Shown: piece by piece, positions 114 to 30,800 of the stretch
Layout: every line of letters starts with the position of its first letter
How positions within the stretch are numbered: the stretch's first letter is position 1
Origin: Crocosphaera sp.
GTDB taxonomy: Bacteria; Cyanobacteriota; Cyanobacteriia; Cyanobacteriales; Microcystaceae
NCBI RefSeq assembly: GCF_030064895.1
Contig: NZ_JASJEB010000009.1
Coordinates: 1-64,000, forward strand
Length of the DNA stretch: 64,000 bases
Direction of reading: 5' to 3'
Notes under the pieces: model-generated
What the model was told of the DNA's origin: nothing
The model's database searches: none
Seen by the model: only the letters and a program-made list of their open reading frames with translations
Translations under genes and position numbers: made by a program

Positions 114-2660
114 ATTATTATTGAGGGTAAAGTAAGATTAGTTAATCAATTAGATGAAAAAATTGGAACCTTAGATAAAGGAGATACCTTTGGAGAATGT
201 CAGTTTTTTATTAATGATGGATTTGAACATTATAGTATTAGAGCAGGACTAAAAACAAAACTGATTTATCTCAACCCAGAAACCCTGTTTCCTTTAATTA
301 CTCAATATCCTCAAATACGAGAGCATTTTTATCAAAAAGCACAACAAATTAATCATAAATTAAATCCGACAAATGTTGAGGAATTTATAAATGATAAACC
401 CATTGATTTATCTAAGAAAACTATAGAAAATAAACCTCAAAAAATTATTAATAAGGCTTATTTTCCTTCCCCTACCCAAAGAGTAACTCATCTATTCCAA
501 AAAGTATGGCGACGCTACCCTTTTTATGCTCAACAAAGTGGTTCTGATTGTGGGGCAGCTTGTTTAGCTATGATCGCCCGTTATTGGGGTAAAAAACTAA
601 GTATTAATCGTTTGAGAGATATCGCCAATGTTGATAGAAATGGTGCATCACTAAAAGGACTTTGTCATGCAGCAGAAAGCATTGGTTTTTCTCCAAGACC
701 GGTTAAAGCGAGTTTAGATAAACTAGCTCAACAGGAACTTCCAGCCATTGTTCATTGGGAAGGAAAACATTATATTGTTGTTTATGAAATCACCAAGAAA
801 CAAGTTATTATTTGTGATCCTGCAATTGGTCAAAAAACCCTAAGTTATGAAGAATTTAAAGAACATTGGACAGGTTATAGCCTGCTATTAAAACCTACAG
901 TTTCTTTAAAAAATACACAAGAAGTCAAAACTCCTTTTTGGCAATTTTTTGAATTAGTTAAACCTCATGGCTTAGTTATATTTGAAATATTTATTGCCTC
1001 TTTGTTTATCCAAATTTTTGGATTAATTACACCCATTTTTACCCAGTTAATTTTAGATAGAGTGGTGGTTCAGCGATCCGGTGTCACTTTATTTGCAGTA
1101 GGGTTAGGATTAATCATTTTTGGTCTATTTCGAGTGGCTATGATGGGGTTACGTCAATATTTATTAGATCATACTGCTAATAAAATTGATATTACCTTAA
1201 TTGTCGCATTTATTAACCATACATTGCGCTTACCTTTAGGATTTTTTGAGTCTCGTTATGTGGGGGATATTATCTCTCGTGTACAGGAAAATCGTAAAAT
1301 TCAACGATTTTTAACAGGAGAATCTTTATCAATTATACTAGATTTAATTACCGTATTTATCTATGTTGGTTTGATGTTTTGGTATAGCTGGAAAATGGCA
1401 CTCTTATCCTTAGCTATTGTCCCACCTTTTTTCTTATTAGCTTTAGTTGCAACTCCATTTTAAAAGCGGATTTCCAGAGAAATTTTTGGAGAAATGGCCA
1501 AGGAACAAAGTTATCTTATTGAAGCTTTAAATGGGGTGAAAACCATTAAATCTAGTGCCGTAGAAAGAAGCGTTCGTTGGCATTGGGAAGAACTCTTACA
1601 TAAAGAAATTACTAAACAATTTTCGGGTCAAGTGATTGGTAACCGCCTACAGATTTTTAGTAATACTATCGAAACTTTAGCAACCACAGGTTTGCTATGG
1701 TATGGTGCATGGTTAGTAATTCAAAATCAATTAACTATTGGTCAATTAGTTGCCTTTAATATGCTATTTGGGAATGTGATTCGTCCTTTCCAAAGACTGA
1801 CGGTATTGTGGGAACAATTACAAGAAGTAGTCATTGCCGTGGAACGACTAAATGATGTACTTGACTACGAACCAGAAGAAGATTTACAACAACAATCACG
1901 ACAAATTTTGCCCCATCTTAAGGGAAATATTCGCTTTGATAATGTTACCTTTCGTTATCATCCAGAAAGTGATTTAAACGTGCTAGAAAACCTCAGTTTT
2001 GAGATTAAATCAGGTCAAACTGTTGCTTTAGTAGGCCGTAGTGGTTCAGGAAAAACAACCATTTCTAAAATGGTTTTAGGACTGTATCCTGCCACGGATG
2101 GAAAAATCTTAATTGATGGGCAAGATATCAATAGTTTATCTCTCAGTTCTTTAAGACAACAAATCGGTGTAGTGGATCAAGATACCTTTCTATTTGGCAC
2201 AACTATTCGAGACAATATTAGTCTTGCTCATCCTGATTCTACCCTAGAAGAAGTTATAGAAACTGCTAAATTAGCAGGAGCCCATGAGTTTATTCAAAAA
2301 TTACCGATGGGATACGAAACGCAAATAGGAGAAGGGGGAGGAATGCTATCAGGAGGACAACGGCAAAGATTAGCGATCGCCCGTGGTTTATTAGGCAATC
2401 CTCGCTTATTAATTTTAGACGAAGCAACCTCCCATTTAGATGCAGAATCAGAGCGTATTATTCAAACAAATTTAAACTCTATTTTACGTCATCAAACCAC
2501 TTTAGTTATTGCCCATCGCCTTTCTACTGTGAGGAAAGCAGACTTAATTTTAGTATTAGATAAAGGAGTATTAATTGAGAAAAGAACTCACGATGAATTA
2601 ATGAAAAAACAAGGACATTATTATTATCTCAACCAACAACAATTAGAGGTAACACCTTAA
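114..2660 (+). pseudogene. Truncated and interrupted peptidase C39 ABC exporter with cNMP-binding domain
   Basis: The frame is open from about 114 and encodes, in order, the second half of a cyclic-nucleotide-binding domain (114-330), a linker, a C39 bacteriocin-processing peptidase (catalytic Cys codon at 549-551 in SGSDCGAAC; His in WEGKHYIVVY; Asp in ICDPA), an exporter membrane domain, and an ATPase with Walker A (GRSGSGKTT), signature (LSGGQRQR) and Walker B (LLILDEATS). Such proteins cleave double-glycine leaders and export the peptide. Two lesions are visible. The 5' part is replaced by the repeat at 6-113, and an in-frame TAA at 1461-1463 splits the membrane domain (LVATPF-stop-KRISREIF) although homology continues in the same frame. 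It could be translated as two pieces (570-1463 and 1494-2660), but that is unproven. The HlyD gene follows 43 bp downstream. Confidence 0.85.
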
Positions 2661-2703: not shown

Positions 2704-4224
2704 ATGACTGATGCAGCTAAAAATGAACACATTGATCACAATTTACAAGAAGAAGAAAATTTGTCTTCTGTCGTTAAAACAAGTATTAATTATCAAGATA
2801 ATTGGTCAAATTCAACCAAAGAAATTCTTGATAGTTTGCCCCGTGTTTGGACAAGAGGACTTCTCTATTTTTTATTTATTTTTGTGGGTATCGCTTTACC
2901 CTGGGCGATGTTAGGAAAAGTAGATGAAACGGGAACAGCAACCGGCAAACTAGAACCCGAAGGAAAGACCTTAAAGTTAGATGCACCGGTGGAGGGAAAG
3001 GTATCTTTAATTAATGTCAAAGAAGGAGACATAGTAAAAGCTGGAGATAGATTAATAGAAATCGAATCTGACATAATTCAAGCAGATTTAAAACAGCAAA
3101 GAAATAAACTAGAAGGACAAAAACAAAGACTGCAACAATTACAAATTTTAGAGAAGCAATTAGAGGTTGTTTTTCAGACACAAAAGCAACAAAATCAGGC
3201 TCAAGAATTAGAAAAATTAGCTCAAGTTAATCAAGCTAAATCTAATCTATCAATCCTGAAAAATGCCTACCATTTACAGCAGTCAGAAAAACAAGCTCAA
3301 GTTAATCAAGCTCAACAGGATTTAGAATATAATCAAGAAGCTATTAAATTAGCAGAAATTCATTTACAAAATGCTCAAGAAGTCAAAGATCGCTATGATG
3401 CGGCTATTAATGAAGGAATTGTTTCTGCGATTCAAGTATTAGAAAAAGAAGACGCTTTACAAGAAAGACAAAAAACTTATAAAAAATTAAAGTCAGATAT
3501 TGAAAAGGCAAAACATCGTTTAGCTGAACAAAAAAGTAGTTATAAACGAACGATGAAAGAAGCAAAAGGAGCAATTCAAGAAGCAGAATTAAAAGTAAGA
3601 GAACAGGACAATAGTTATCAAAGCATCAAGCAATCTGGTGAACTTTCTTTACTAAAAAATAAAGAGCAAATCAATAATATACAAAGAGATATAACCACTC
3701 TTCAATCAGACATAAAACAGACAAAAAGTAAAATAGAAAGTTTAGAGTATCAGTTAAGTCAACGAGTAGTAAAATCACCTATTGAGGGAATAGTTTTTGA
3801 TTTACCCATTGATGCAGAAGGGGCAGTTGTTCAACCCGGAAAGCGCATTTTAGAAATTGCACCTCAAGGAACAAATTTGATTTTAAGAGCGCAAATGGCT
3901 ACAACAGAAAGTGGTTCTGTAAGCCAAGAAATGCCAGTAAAAATGAAGTTTGATGCTTATCCTTTTCAGGATTTTGGTATCATTGAAGGGACATTAATTG
4001 AAGTTTCTCCAACAACATCAGAAATAGAAACCCCTGATGGTAAAACCTTGGTTTATGACCTGATAATTGAACTTGATAAGACCTGTATGCCAACCCCCGA
4101 TGAGTGTATTAAATTACGTCCAGGAGATACAGCGACAGCAGAGGTTGTTATTCGTCAACGTCGGATTATTGATTTTGTACTTGATCCCTTTAAAAAGTTA
4201 CACAATGGAGGATTTAAACTTTAA
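2704..4224 (+). CDS. HlyD-family periplasmic adaptor of the peptide exporter
   Basis: This is a membrane-fusion protein of type I secretion and bacteriocin exporters, linking the inner-membrane ABC protein to the envelope. The 506 residues show a cytoplasmic head, one membrane helix at about 52-72, a first lipoyl-like half near 80-120 (EGKVSLINVKEGDIVKAGD), a long glutamine/lysine-rich coiled coil at about 125-350, the second lipoyl half (SPIEGIVFDLPIDAEGAVVQPG) and a C-terminal beta-barrel ending near residue 500. The length is normal for the family. It begins 43 bp after the C39/ABC gene with GGAG just upstream, so the two were an operon. It looks intact although its partner is broken. Its last 120 bp are duplicated at 4651-4770. 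Confidence 0.92.
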   Translation: MTDAAKNEHIDHNLQEEENLSSVVKTSINYQDNWSNSTKEILDSLPRVWTRGLLYFLFIFVGIALPWAMLGKVDETGTATGKLEPEGKTLKLDAPVEGKVSLINVKEGDIVKAGDRLIEIESDIIQADLKQQRNKLEGQKQRLQQLQILEKQLEVVFQTQKQQNQAQELEKLAQVNQAKSNLSILKNAYHLQQSEKQAQVNQAQQDLEYNQEAIKLAEIHLQNAQEVKDRYDAAINEGIVSAIQVLEKEDALQERQKTYKKLKSDIEKAKHRLAEQKSSYKRTMKEAKGAIQEAELKVREQDNSYQSIKQSGELSLLKNKEQINNIQRDITTLQSDIKQTKSKIESLEYQLSQRVVKSPIEGIVFDLPIDAEGAVVQPGKRILEIAPQGTNLILRAQMATTESGSVSQEMPVKMKFDAYPFQDFGIIEGTLIEVSPTTSEIETPDGKTLVYDLIIELDKTCMPTPDECIKLRPGDTATAEVVIRQRRIIDFVLDPFKKLHNGGFKL

Positions 4225-4289: not shown

Positions 4290-4625
4290 ATGGACAAACT
4301 AGAGTTTTATCGTAGTGTAATCCAATCATTATTAACAGCTTATGCTGCTGTTCCTATTTCCAATGGAGCGATAGATTGTTATACAGTTTTTGACACGAAA
4401 CAAGACCATTACCAGGTTATGAATGTGGGATGGGATGGCCATCGACGGGTTTATGGTTCTGTTCTCCATTTAGATATTAAAAAAGGAAAGATTTGGATTG
4501 AGCAAAATATGACAGAAATGAGAATTGCTAAAGAACTTATTAAAAAAGGGGTTCCTAAAGAAGATATTGTCTTAGGATTTCAAGCTCCAGAAATGCGTCA
4601 ATATACAGATTACGCTGTTATTTAA
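4290..4625 (+). CDS. xisI: XisI-like fdxN-element excision controlling factor
   Basis: The 111-residue protein matches the XisI family by pattern: an N-terminal DKLEFYRSVIQSLL helix, the VGWDGHRRVYGSVLHLDIKKGKIWIEQ core and a PKEDIVLGF near the end. XisI was named for developmental excision of the fdxN element in Anabaena, but family members are common in unicellular cyanobacteria without heterocysts, where their role is unknown. The usual partner XisH is not present next to it. The gene sits between the intact HlyD gene and a duplicated scrap of its 3' end, which suggests that it arrived by insertion with a local duplication. Confidence 0.85.
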   Translation: MDKLEFYRSVIQSLLTAYAAVPISNGAIDCYTVFDTKQDHYQVMNVGWDGHRRVYGSVLHLDIKKGKIWIEQNMTEMRIAKELIKKGVPKEDIVLGFQAPEMRQYTDYAVI

Positions 4626-4650
4626 TTTTAATTAAAGATTCTTTAGAGAC

Positions 4651-4770
4651 TGTATTAAAGTATGTCCAGGAGATACAGCTAAAGAAGAGATTATTATTCG
4701 TCAACTTCGTATTATTTATTTTGTAATTGATCCCTTTAAAAAGTTACAAAATGGAGAATTTAAACTTTAG
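4651..4770 (+). pseudogene. Duplicated 3' fragment of the HlyD gene
   Basis: Translated in frame, this reads CIKVCPGDTAKEEIIIRQ followed by LRIIYFVIDPFKKLQNG and a stop. That parallels the last 39 codons of the adaptor gene (4105-4224: CIKLRPGDTATAEVVIRQ, then RRIIDFVLDPFKKLHNG). No start codon or upstream homology is present, so it is a relic. The two copies flank the xisI-like gene. Confidence 0.9.
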
Positions 4771-4928: not shown

Positions 4929-5096
4929 TTAAAGATTATCATCAATAACCAACCCAACAACAACAACTAAGAGTGCAACCTCCAAGATTTTTTTCCAATT
5001 CCATTTTCCACCGACAATACTCTCTAATTCTAAGTCAGATAATTCTGTATAGTCTAATTCAACAGGTTTAAGATCAGAAATAACTATGTTTGCCAT
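4929..5096 (-). CDS. Small double-glycine-leader peptide, bacteriocin-like precursor
   Basis: A 55-residue open frame runs on the minus strand from ATG at 5096, with GGAG ten bases before the ATG. Residues 19-30 are LSDLELESIVGG, which fits the consensus LSxxELxxIxGG of leaders cut by C39 peptidases at every position. Cleavage after Gly30 would release a 25-residue core: KWNWKKILE, a strongly hydrophobic run (VALLVVVVGLV) and an acidic tail DDNL. Core peptides of this kind (basic and aromatic start, then a hydrophobic segment) are typical of membrane-active class II bacteriocins or microcins. The gene faces the C39/ABC and HlyD genes, which would be its natural exporter. No immunity gene is recognised nearby. 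The leader assignment is strong, but any antimicrobial role is inference. Confidence 0.8.
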   Translation of the reverse strand: MANIVISDLKPVELDYTELSDLELESIVGGKWNWKKILEVALLVVVVGLVIDDNL

Positions 5097-5720
5097 TGTT
5101 ACATTACTCCATAATTAGTTGTGTTTTTGAAAAGCTTGAATTTGCTTGTCTTATTTATAAGATATCAAGTATTAATTAGTAGCGTCAATAGCAAAAAAAG
5201 CTTAAATTAATAACAATTAAACTAATTATTTCCTGATATTGTTTCAGAAAACTACCTTTGTGACTATGTAGATGGTTAAATGTGATCTAAACGTATATTG
5301 AGTTGTGATCTCGATCAATAATTTTCAGTGATTTTGTGCAATATCCAAGAATAAATTAAAACAATTATTTCTTTTTTAAATTATCTCACCTCTAGTTATG
5401 GTCTATTTTAACTTCCTATCTATAGGATGTTTGAAAAGTGTGAATTTTAATTTAGATCCTCTTAGTCCTTCTTTGAAAGGAGGTTTAGAGGAGCTTAGGG
5501 GCTTCTCAAACTGCCTCTTAGCTAATTTTGAATTTTTTTATCCCGAAGAAGAACTAAGATGAATAAAGACAATTTTGACGGTGTTGGTTCGATTAATAGA
5601 CTTATCAGCTTTTTCAATAGTGATCAATTCTTAAGTTTCCATCAACAAGGTAGCAGCAATATGGAGATCATAAATTTTTGATATAATTAAATTAAGAAAT
5701 AAATATTTCCAGCTAAAGCC
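5097..5720. other. Long AT-rich intergenic region upstream of the peptide and Uma2 genes
   Basis: Besides the likely promoter of the minus-strand peptide gene on the left, and a TATAAT at 5682-5687 ahead of the Uma2 gene on the right, I see no convincing gene. A 40-codon frame at 5559-5681 (MNKDNFDGVGSINRLI...) has only a weak GAAGAAG ribosome site and no recognisable family. The region may contain decayed parts of the export locus. Confidence 0.5.
5682..5687 (+). promoter_or_regulatory. Probable -10 box of the Uma2 gene
   Basis: TATAAT lies 33 bp before the ATG at 5721, in the context ATATAATTAAATTAAG. A near-identical context (GTATAATTAAATTAG) precedes the twin Uma2 genes at 21187. No good -35 box is visible. 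Confidence 0.45.
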
Positions 5721-6428: not shown

Positions 6429-6644
6429 ATGTCATCACAGATCAACATTACCGAGCAAGATATTCTCAAACAACTTAAATTATCAGGAAAAGTCCCAGAA
6501 ATTCTCGAAGGGATAGTTAAGCAGACAATTATTACTGAAGAAGCAGAAAAAGCAGACATCACAATAGAAACTGAAGAACTACAAAAAGCCGCCGATCAAT
6601 TTCGGTTACTTAATGATCTTCGAATGGTTGAAAAACAAAGTTGA
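6429..6644 (+). CDS. Short SurA-N/peptidylprolyl isomerase-like fragment
   Basis: The 71 residues (NITEQDILKQLKLSGKVPEI, then a stretch ending ELQKAADQFRLLNDLR) resemble the N-terminal helical domain of PPIase/SurA-type proteins that accompany C39/HlyD peptide exporters in cyanobacteria. The family is normally about 240-260 residues with a parvulin-type domain behind. Here a TGA stops it at residue 72 and no matching continuation is visible in any frame, so it is a truncated remnant or a stand-alone short form. I recognise the similarity from memory only. It supports reading 1-6.7 kb as one old export locus. Confidence 0.55.
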   Translation: MSSQINITEQDILKQLKLSGKVPEILEGIVKQTIITEEAEKADITIETEELQKAADQFRLLNDLRMVEKQS

Positions 6645-6766: not shown

Positions 6767-7807
6767 TTAGTTAATAACTAATTTTTTAAGCACATCTTGG
6801 TGCATAAAAGCGCGATCTTTTAAAGATTGAATCCTATCTTTAATTAACGGGTCCCCATTAACAAAATATTCTAACCAAGCGGTACTAATAACATTGGGAT
6901 CAGTGGGAAGTTGAGCTAAATCCCATCCAGGAATTTCGATTTCTTCCATTAAATAGTCCACTTTAGGATCATAACTGAGAGCAAAACATTTACACTCTTG
7001 TGAAGCGGCCATAATTAAACTGTGTAAACGCATCCCAATTATCATCTCTACCCCTTGAAAGAAACCCTTTAATTCTCTGGGATTTTCTAATTGAATAATC
7101 TGGTTAGTCCCTGGTAATTGTTTAGCAATAGAACGAGCAATTTCTAAATCTTGGGTTGCTTGGAAAGGAACCAATAAAAGACAGGTATTGGTGGCCTTTT
7201 GAAAATCAATTAAAGCTTGGGTTAATATCTTTAACCTTTGAGGGGTTAATAGACGATGACTCCGTAAATTAACTGCTACTCTCGGTGCCGGTAAATCCGC
7301 TAAACCTACCACAGATTTAGCCGTTAACGCCCAAACTGGATCAGGGGCAATCAAAGGATTTATATGCCATTTTGATAATAATTGTGCGGACTTATAATCC
7401 CTAACACTAACAGCAGTACAACCTAATAAAACTTGATGGGTTAACCAACGGGTCAAAGGATTATTTAAAGGGCCAATTCCTTGCGCCCAAGCAACAGTTT
7501 TTAAGCCTTTTTGTTGGGCTAATGCCATCAATCCTGCATAATAAATAGGACTAGCTAAACTGGTAACATCCTGCATCAAACTCCCCCCACCCCAAATAAA
7601 AATATCAGAGGTTTTTAGAGCTTCTAAAATAGCTAACCCAGAACGATTATGATAAGTTTGCACCCCATATTGTTCGTAAGTTTTACGAGGGTTTGCTGAG
7701 AGGACAATGGGTTCAACTTGAGAGGGTAACATCTGTAGCAAAGTCATCAATAAGGCTTCATCGCCCCCGTTTCCTTTGCCATAATAACCACTAATAACTG
7801 CCCGCAT
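6767..7807 (-). CDS. csaB: Polysaccharide pyruvyl transferase CsaB
   Basis: CsaB transfers pyruvate from phosphoenolpyruvate onto cell-wall polysaccharide, a modification that anchors S-layer proteins. The chain starts MRAVISGYYGKGNGGDEALL, the characteristic N-terminal glycine-rich loop. It continues with a glycosyltransferase-like core (WGGGSLMQDVTS, VAWAQGIGPL) and the MRLHSLIMAA motif near residue 270. I prefer the ATG at 7807 over one at 7828 because family members start with MRAV and GAGAAG precedes it. The earlier start would add MANREVK and overlap the ydcF-like gene. Only a few bases separate it from that upstream gene, so they are co-transcribed. Confidence 0.9.
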   Translation of the reverse strand: MRAVISGYYGKGNGGDEALLMTLLQMLPSQVEPIVLSANPRKTYEQYGVQTYHNRSGLAILEALKTSDIFIWGGGSLMQDVTSLASPIYYAGLMALAQQKGLKTVAWAQGIGPLNNPLTRWLTHQVLLGCTAVSVRDYKSAQLLSKWHINPLIAPDPVWALTAKSVVGLADLPAPRVAVNLRSHRLLTPQRLKILTQALIDFQKATNTCLLLVPFQATQDLEIARSIAKQLPGTNQIIQLENPRELKGFFQGVEMIIGMRLHSLIMAASQECKCFALSYDPKVDYLMEEIEIPGWDLAQLPTDPNVISTAWLEYFVNGDPLIKDRIQSLKDRAFMHQDVLKKLVIN

Positions 7808-30071: not shown

Positions 30072-30800
30072 ATGCAAGAAAACGCGGAAATACTATTGAA
30101 TGAATTTAGAGCCAGGGTAGAAAAGAAAGAATTAACAAGAACAAAAATAGAAAACTTATTTGTTGATAATAGTCTAGATGAAAGTGATGTTCTAACTGTT
30201 TATGATGGTCTATTTTTAGGTTTATTCACTGATTTTGAACAATTACTGGAAGAATTATTCTGGGGATTACTTGAAGGAAAAATTACGATTAATGGATACC
30301 AAATTAACAAAATTCGTAAAGTTACAATTTCTCCACAATCAGAAATTAATGCAGTTATAGCAATAGACAGGCTAGTTAGGACACATAAATTATATTTTAA
30401 GGGAACAGGGAACAGGGAACAGGGAACAGAAAAATGTCCTAATAGCTTTGGCGACTGCTATATTTTGGGAGGACAAAGATATCTTGACTGGTTGCCTTAT
30501 GACAACACAATAAAACGAGCAAAAATTTTTTTCCATAATGGTATTCCTTTTGATAATCTTGACGACGATCAAAAAACTTATTTAGGACGTTATCATAAAA
30601 TTAGAAATGCGATCGCTCATAAAAGTCCTAAATCGCAAGCAGATTTTAATAAAATCATTCAAAACCTCCCCTTATTACCTTCACAAAAAAGTCCAGCAGG
30701 ATATTTAAGAAGCAAACCAAGGGGACAACAAACCCAATATGAAATTGCATCTGCTCAACTAATACAAATTGCTTTAAATTTATGTAGAATTAATGTGTAA
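30072..30800 (+). CDS. HEPN-like nuclease of the MAE_28990/MAE_18760 type
   Basis: 242 residues from the ATG 4 bp after the DUF262 stop. It contains the HEPN RNase signature R-x4-H in KIRNAIAHKSP, and upstream DFEQLLEELFWGLLEGKI and LGGQRYLDWLPYDNTIKRA, which I associate with the MAE_28990 group described from Microcystis. HEPN proteins are usually RNases in toxin-antitoxin, abortive-infection or restriction systems. An in-frame insert of four GGGAACA heptamers (30401-30428) adds roughly GTGNREQGTE in the middle. The frame remains open, so the protein may be functional or altered. The 3' end abuts the broken toxin gene. Confidence 0.7.
   Translation: MQENAEILLNEFRARVEKKELTRTKIENLFVDNSLDESDVLTVYDGLFLGLFTDFEQLLEELFWGLLEGKITINGYQINKIRKVTISPQSEINAVIAIDRLVRTHKLYFKGTGNREQGTEKCPNSFGDCYILGGQRYLDWLPYDNTIKRAKIFFHNGIPFDNLDDDQKTYLGRYHKIRNAIAHKSPKSQADFNKIIQNLPLLPSQKSPAGYLRSKPRGQQTQYEIASAQLIQIALNLCRINV
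30401..30428 (+). repeat. Four tandem GGGAACA heptamers inside the HEPN gene
   Basis: Heptamers at 30401, 30408, 30415 and 30422, coding in frame. The same block is found at 51-78 and a shorter one near 40836-40847. Heptamer tandem repeats are typical of cyanobacterial intergenic DNA, so presence inside a gene is unusual. Confidence 0.9.

Follow-up and report, generated by a model that had tools for sequence, protein, structure and literature searches.

A double-glycine precursor peptide gene near a disrupted C39/HlyD exporter in Crocosphaera sp.

Reading frame, leader and core

We asked whether a short open reading frame (ORF) in a 64,000-nucleotide stretch of Crocosphaera DNA (the window) encodes a genuine secreted peptide, and whether the C39/HlyD exporter encoded 2.3 kb away is its working partner. 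An earlier note had claimed a 55-codon ORF at 4929–5096 with a double-glycine (GG) leader and a ribosome-binding site; coordinates, length, leader and GGAG were all confirmed, on the minus strand. From the ORF reading and the leader homologues, the product divides into the leader MANIVISDLKPVELDYTELSDLELESIVGG and the core KWNWKKILEVALLVVVVGLVIDDNL. The leader (5007–5096, minus strand) comprises 30 residues ending in GG, carries a charge of -6 and follows the consensus MANIxIxDL...ELSxLELxxIxGG of our alignment A1. The core (4932–5006, minus strand) comprises 25 residues with KWNWKK, a 15-residue hydrophobic run and DDNL, and contains no Cys, Ser or Thr. The ribosome-binding site GGAG (5107–5110, minus strand) is located 10 nt before the ATG. 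The core had been described as basic, then hydrophobic. This holds for the basic KWNWKK start and the hydrophobic run; however, the tail is acidic and the net charge is 0 because of E, D and D, and the computed hydrophobic moment is low.

The claimed full match to the leader rule LSxxELxxIxGG was also correct, as every position is satisfied in the leader sequence LSDLELESIVGG; the gene is a short ORF fitting the GG-leader consensus L-12 S/T-11 E-8 L-7 I-4 G-2 G-1. A simulation of 112.8 Mb with the triplet statistics of the window yielded a single occurrence of the strict motif, all frames counted, which corresponds to 5.7e-4 per 64 kb and places the leader far above chance. For a relaxed leader motif with an upstream Met, the simulation gave 0.007 expected per 64 kb. 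All matches to curated models were to GG-leader families and below cut-off (score/cut-off: TIGR03949, 19.8/21.5; TIGR01847, 15.5/15.7; PF10439, 13.1/27.1), and the lactobin/cerein 7B model reached an E value of 5e-4, slightly under that model's cut-off. The leader rule is shared with class II bacteriocins and microcins having TIGR01847-type leaders. Unlike class II bacteriocins, however, the precursor passes no model cut-off, and no immunity-like ORF adjoining the gene was seen at the locus. We conclude that 4929–5096 is a genuine small GG-leader precursor of the C39/HlyD-linked type.

Upstream region and relatives of the leader

A sigma-70-like promoter, TTGACG-N18-TATCTT (5159–5188, minus strand), is conserved before the GG genes of two sister species, and a 27-bp box, AAATAATTAGTTTAATTGTTATTAATT (5205–5231, minus strand), lies further upstream. 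The upstream regions of the precursor gene, two genes of the congener G002 and one gene of G008 could be aligned and have in common TTGAC(G/A)-N18-TATNTT and the box pattern AAATAATTRNTTNMATTRTTATTAATT. Among nine genomes of the genus, this pattern occurred without mismatch five times, each time upstream of a GG-leader ORF: at the precursor, the two G002 genes, the G008 gene and a GG gene in contig 164 of G003. Four of these five sites had served to define the pattern, which leaves the G003 site as the independent case. The shared promoter and box are the strongest evidence we have, and they point to 4929–5096 as a real, regulated gene that would be transcribed from its own promoter. Box matches with one or two mismatches (contigs C103 and C125 of the window genome; contig C128 of G006) were taken as chance, with no convincing GG ORF following them.

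Far upstream, the DNA before the precursor is similar to that of G002 gene B, and near the start it is similar to both G002 genes, which hints at recombination between repeats. The promoter that best matches the precursor's upstream region belongs to a G002 peptide (stretch L055, 13002–13148) whose leader ends in ILG-LG, not GG.

A leader profile made from alignment A1 (13 rows, the precursor included) matched the precursor, as a member of the profile, with an E value of 1.8e-16; it detected one such gene in the window genome and up to eight matches, some weak, in a sister species. Leader relatives were also found in genomes of the same family and in another family of the order (49–61% over 31–39 residues), and the matches end at GG or slightly past it. 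Same-family matches with E above about 0.1 lay mostly within long unrelated frames and were discarded. The homologues thus conserve the leader and not the core. No core homologue was found among 386 genomes drawn from the phylum (E≤0.001), among plasmids or in a search of genome contigs, in which the sole match was the leader of Nostoc sp. MG11 (65% over 31 residues), and the claim that the core is unlike any known stands across these sets. When the core and 3' region were aligned to the sister genes, similarity was near the level of shuffled sequence in what is a noisy comparison.

The exporter and its neighborhood

A CAP_ED-C39 exporter is present in six congeners; it is absent from the congener G007, which we counted against our preferred reading. 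Downstream of hlyD, G002 and G008 encode GG peptides that differ in their cores and, like the precursor, are read from the strand opposite to hlyD. The G002 peptides read MANITISDLKK...IKGG followed by FIETPIGFGVWW, and MSRIAINDLE...ILG followed by LGK...; the G008 peptide reads MFRIEINELN...IFGG followed by DHFEP.... One GG peptide of a different leader type lies downstream of hlyD in G005, with three tandem peptides after the gene for the peptidyl-prolyl isomerase (PPIase). Further GG genes lie beside PPIase and Uma2 genes in G003 and in a probable continuation contig of G006, and none was recognized at the G004 locus.

We also assessed 22 remote leader loci, using stretches of up to 20 kb around each match. 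A C39 domain 65–81% identical to that of the window was present in 17 of the 22, most of which also had HlyD and a PpiC-type isomerase, although 17/22 is not an unbiased estimate because the leader profile was built partly from exporter-linked members. With the precursor peptide itself as the query, four loci were found. Two have a C39 exporter, HlyD and PPIase; a third has ABC, HlyD and PPIase where the stretch ends; and the fourth has none of these. These remote loci and the synteny in congeners show that the leader family is genetically linked to C39 exporters; the precursor occupies a syntenic position and has its promoter in common with the sister genes. Many remote loci encode LxmK-like and HopA1 proteins or a TIGR04103 radical SAM maturase. 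The three tandem GG precursors of G005 (stretch L057, 14392–17649), with cores such as STTVCYVVIGYLIAKK, adjoin HopA1 and LxmK-like proteins and are probable class V lanthipeptides with GG leaders.

The earlier note had placed the precursor opposite the C39/HlyD exporter. Pairing with a working exporter in this strain is not supported, as the exporter gene is doubly disrupted. The CAP_ED-C39-ABC exporter (114–2660, plus strand) is a pseudogene whose 5' codons lie on another contig, C161, beyond a MITE-like repeat of 108 bp (6–113) with terminal inverted repeats, TA at both ends and at least 40 copies in the genome. The window starts at a contig end, and its similarity to intact exporters, such as the 903-aa protein of G002, sets in at position 111. 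The missing N-terminus was found at the end of C161 (82% identical to G002 residues 1–56), and this end overlaps the window exactly over 116 bp, an overlap in which the repeat is flanked by exporter sequence on either side. The MITE splits the exporter near codon 55. The repeat contains stops in the exporter frame, and the next in-frame ATG, GTG or TTG is only at 570, after the catalytic Cys. In addition, a nonsense codon TAA (1461–1463, plus strand) falls between the two membrane halves of the exporter; six congeners have TTA (Leu) at this site, and the TAA call depends on a single base in a draft assembly. Codons for the C39 catalytic residues persist, and the frame of the HlyD-type membrane fusion protein (2704–4224, plus strand) is intact. 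The exporter dN/dS between this strain and G002 (0.10) is similar to that of intact pairs, which suggests that inactivation was recent. A second MITE copy lies at 30356–30466 of the window, and the repeat includes short GGGAACA repeats.

The exporter 2.3 kb away had been called the only peptidase of the right type. Indeed, no other catalytic C39 domain was found in the assembly, but the exporter gene is interrupted by the MITE and carries the in-frame TAA. A second C39-like CAP_ED exporter, on contig C9 (L061/L027), has GVGSAC where the active motif is DCGAAC, with Val at the catalytic Cys position, and its C39-like domain is presumably inactive as a peptidase. Of the two exporters with C39 or C39-like domains found in the assembly, one is split and stopped and the other degenerate. 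Maturation requires a functional C39 exporter in the same genome, whereas membership by descent does not, and a C39 peptidase on missing DNA could still process the precursor, the assembly being about 98% complete.

The loss extends beyond the exporter. The PpiC/SurA-like PPIase (6429–6644, plus strand) is truncated to 71 aa compared with 253 aa in G002; its homology stops at 6621, and csaB starts at 6767. In G005, about 8 kb containing radical SAM, LxmK/HopA1 and Nif11 precursor genes separates the isomerase gene from csaB. No full-length TIGR04103 maturase was found in the window genome; four congeners have one.

The last 123 bp of hlyD (4101–4223) are duplicated at 4647–4769 with about 88% identity, beyond xisI (4290–4625). 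G003 and G008 likewise have xisI and a second hlyD tail, whereas the loci of G002 and G005 gave no match to xisI, which apparently entered at the 3' end of hlyD.

Origin and possible roles of the peptide

The explanation that we consider likely is that 4929–5096 encodes a genuine class II-like GG precursor with its own promoter, located in a recently collapsed cluster and now orphaned. In the intact relatives, the adjacent CAP_ED-C39-ABC exporter would bind the leader through its C39 domain and cut it after Gly-Gly, and the core would leave through an ABC-HlyD-outer-membrane channel. C39 domains are known to cut GG leaders during export (PMC10986499; PMC6363468). The region downstream of hlyD has a conserved promoter and leader but a core that differs from species to species, a pattern that would fit a competition or communication peptide under fast diversification. 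In this strain, the cluster has collapsed, with the MITE and nonsense codon in the exporter, the cut in the PPIase and the absence of the radical-SAM segment, leaving the precursor orphaned and most likely not matured. The cluster for peptide secretion is probably dying, with the precursor as its last member still intact, and the product of the precursor is probably a short, unmodified, membrane-active peptide of class II (double-glycine).

Active maturation and export by the adjacent exporter in this strain, as a bacteriocin or signal, would agree with the intact ORF, ribosome site, promoter and HlyD and with the catalytic residues that are still encoded. We nevertheless consider it improbable, because the exporter is split by a stop-carrying MITE, has no in-frame ATG, GTG or TTG ahead of the catalytic Cys and carries TAA between its membrane halves. 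The absence of a core homologue and the decay of the cluster could also be read as signs of a chance ORF or a decayed remnant without a product. With the strict motif expected about 6e-4 times per window, and with promoter, ribosome site and leader intact and common to sister genes at the same place, this reading is very hard to sustain. It is also quite unlikely that the gene encodes the precursor of a modified peptide whose maturase was lost here, either the radical SAM TIGR04103 or the class V lanthipeptide pair LxmK/HopA1. Both enzyme types occur in the relatives' clusters, and several leader relatives adjoin LxmK-like and HopA1 proteins, as do type-B class V lanthipeptide precursors (PMC9486802). 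Unlike those precursors, however, the core has no Ser, Thr or Cys, and no HopA1 match was found in the window genome. With Tyr missing as well, both lanthionine formation and Tyr-Gly splicing are ruled out for the core. Moreover, G008 has GG peptides at the locus, yet neither a full-length TIGR04103 match nor a HopA1 match.

The reading that competes most closely concerns function. In Synechococcus elongatus, biofilm formation requires the GG motifs of EbfG1-4 as well as the C39 exporter PteB (PMC4997328). The present family could possibly consist of such self-acting matrix or colony-state peptides rather than antimicrobials, and we hold this with some doubt. In one cyanobacterium, GG peptides whose mature parts are not conserved have a role in biofilm development (PMC4997328), and no immunity-like gene was seen beside the precursor gene. 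On the other hand, the core, at 25 residues, falls far short of the 6–7 kDa of mature EbfG, for which the biofilm role was shown, and core replacement species by species fits competition better. The likeness to EbfG1-4 and PteB is that both systems have small secreted GG-motif proteins tied to a C39 ABC exporter; by analogy, a biofilm role is possible for the precursor group. For the orphaned class II-like precursor that we prefer, species-specific cores favor interaction between strains, and a bacteriocin or signalling role is possible; sequence alone does not decide between killing, signalling and matrix building.

The earlier note had also called the peptide a candidate new bacteriocin or signalling peptide. 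Novelty as a kind is not supported, as Wang, Fewer and Sivonen (2011; PMC3140520) already described 145 cyanobacterial clusters and 290 GG precursors, hundreds of them beside CAP_ED-C39 exporters, with little-conserved cores, many precursors unannotated and some clusters disrupted. Their groups I and II contain a long-type CAP_ED-C39 ABC transporter, HlyD and SurA/rotamase. The congeners have this content, and this strain has all of it with the exporter and rotamase broken. The transporter domain order, HlyD, the rotamase protein and short precursors with unconserved cores all agree with those clusters; however, the exporter, rotamase and radical-SAM parts of this strain are broken or lost. 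The locus extends that kind by its orphan state, by cores that are replaced at one position and by a promoter box that the genes share. With this precursor, a core that was seen nowhere else joins the secreted peptides of cyanobacteria, a group that is large and mostly untested. The locus also provides a clean natural case of exporter loss, with sister species that have intact exporters and varied cores on one side and a species with an orphan precursor on the other, which allows one to ask whether precursors outlive exporters and whether cores have effects between strains. Co-regulated precursors could readily be sought by means of the conserved 27-bp box.

Nif11-type precursors (N11P, TIGR03798; PMC2887384) likewise have a GG end and hypervariable cores, and those in the relatives are probably served by the same exporter; unlike them, the precursor has a short leader and no TIGR03798 match. 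Some Nif11-type precursors, in whose cores (M/L/I/A)YG motifs are repeated, lie beside the TIGR04103 radical SAM protein (L122, 8350–11978; L118, 1050–3139; L121, 35–791) and may resemble substrates of Tyr-Gly splicing (spliceotides).

An HTH protein of 176–196 aa, similar to the N-terminal part of IS630 transposases, is encoded directly before the CAP_ED-C39 exporter, both here and at about 20 other loci across the order. No transposase catalytic domain was found in it, and it is a candidate domesticated regulator. We doubt, but do entertain, that the promoter and leader form a genus-wide fixed acceptor unit into which cores are swapped by recombination between repeated units, perhaps under this IS630-derived protein with the 27-bp box as its operator. 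The copy of the HTH gene in the window genome is on contig C161 (stretch L120, 321–851).
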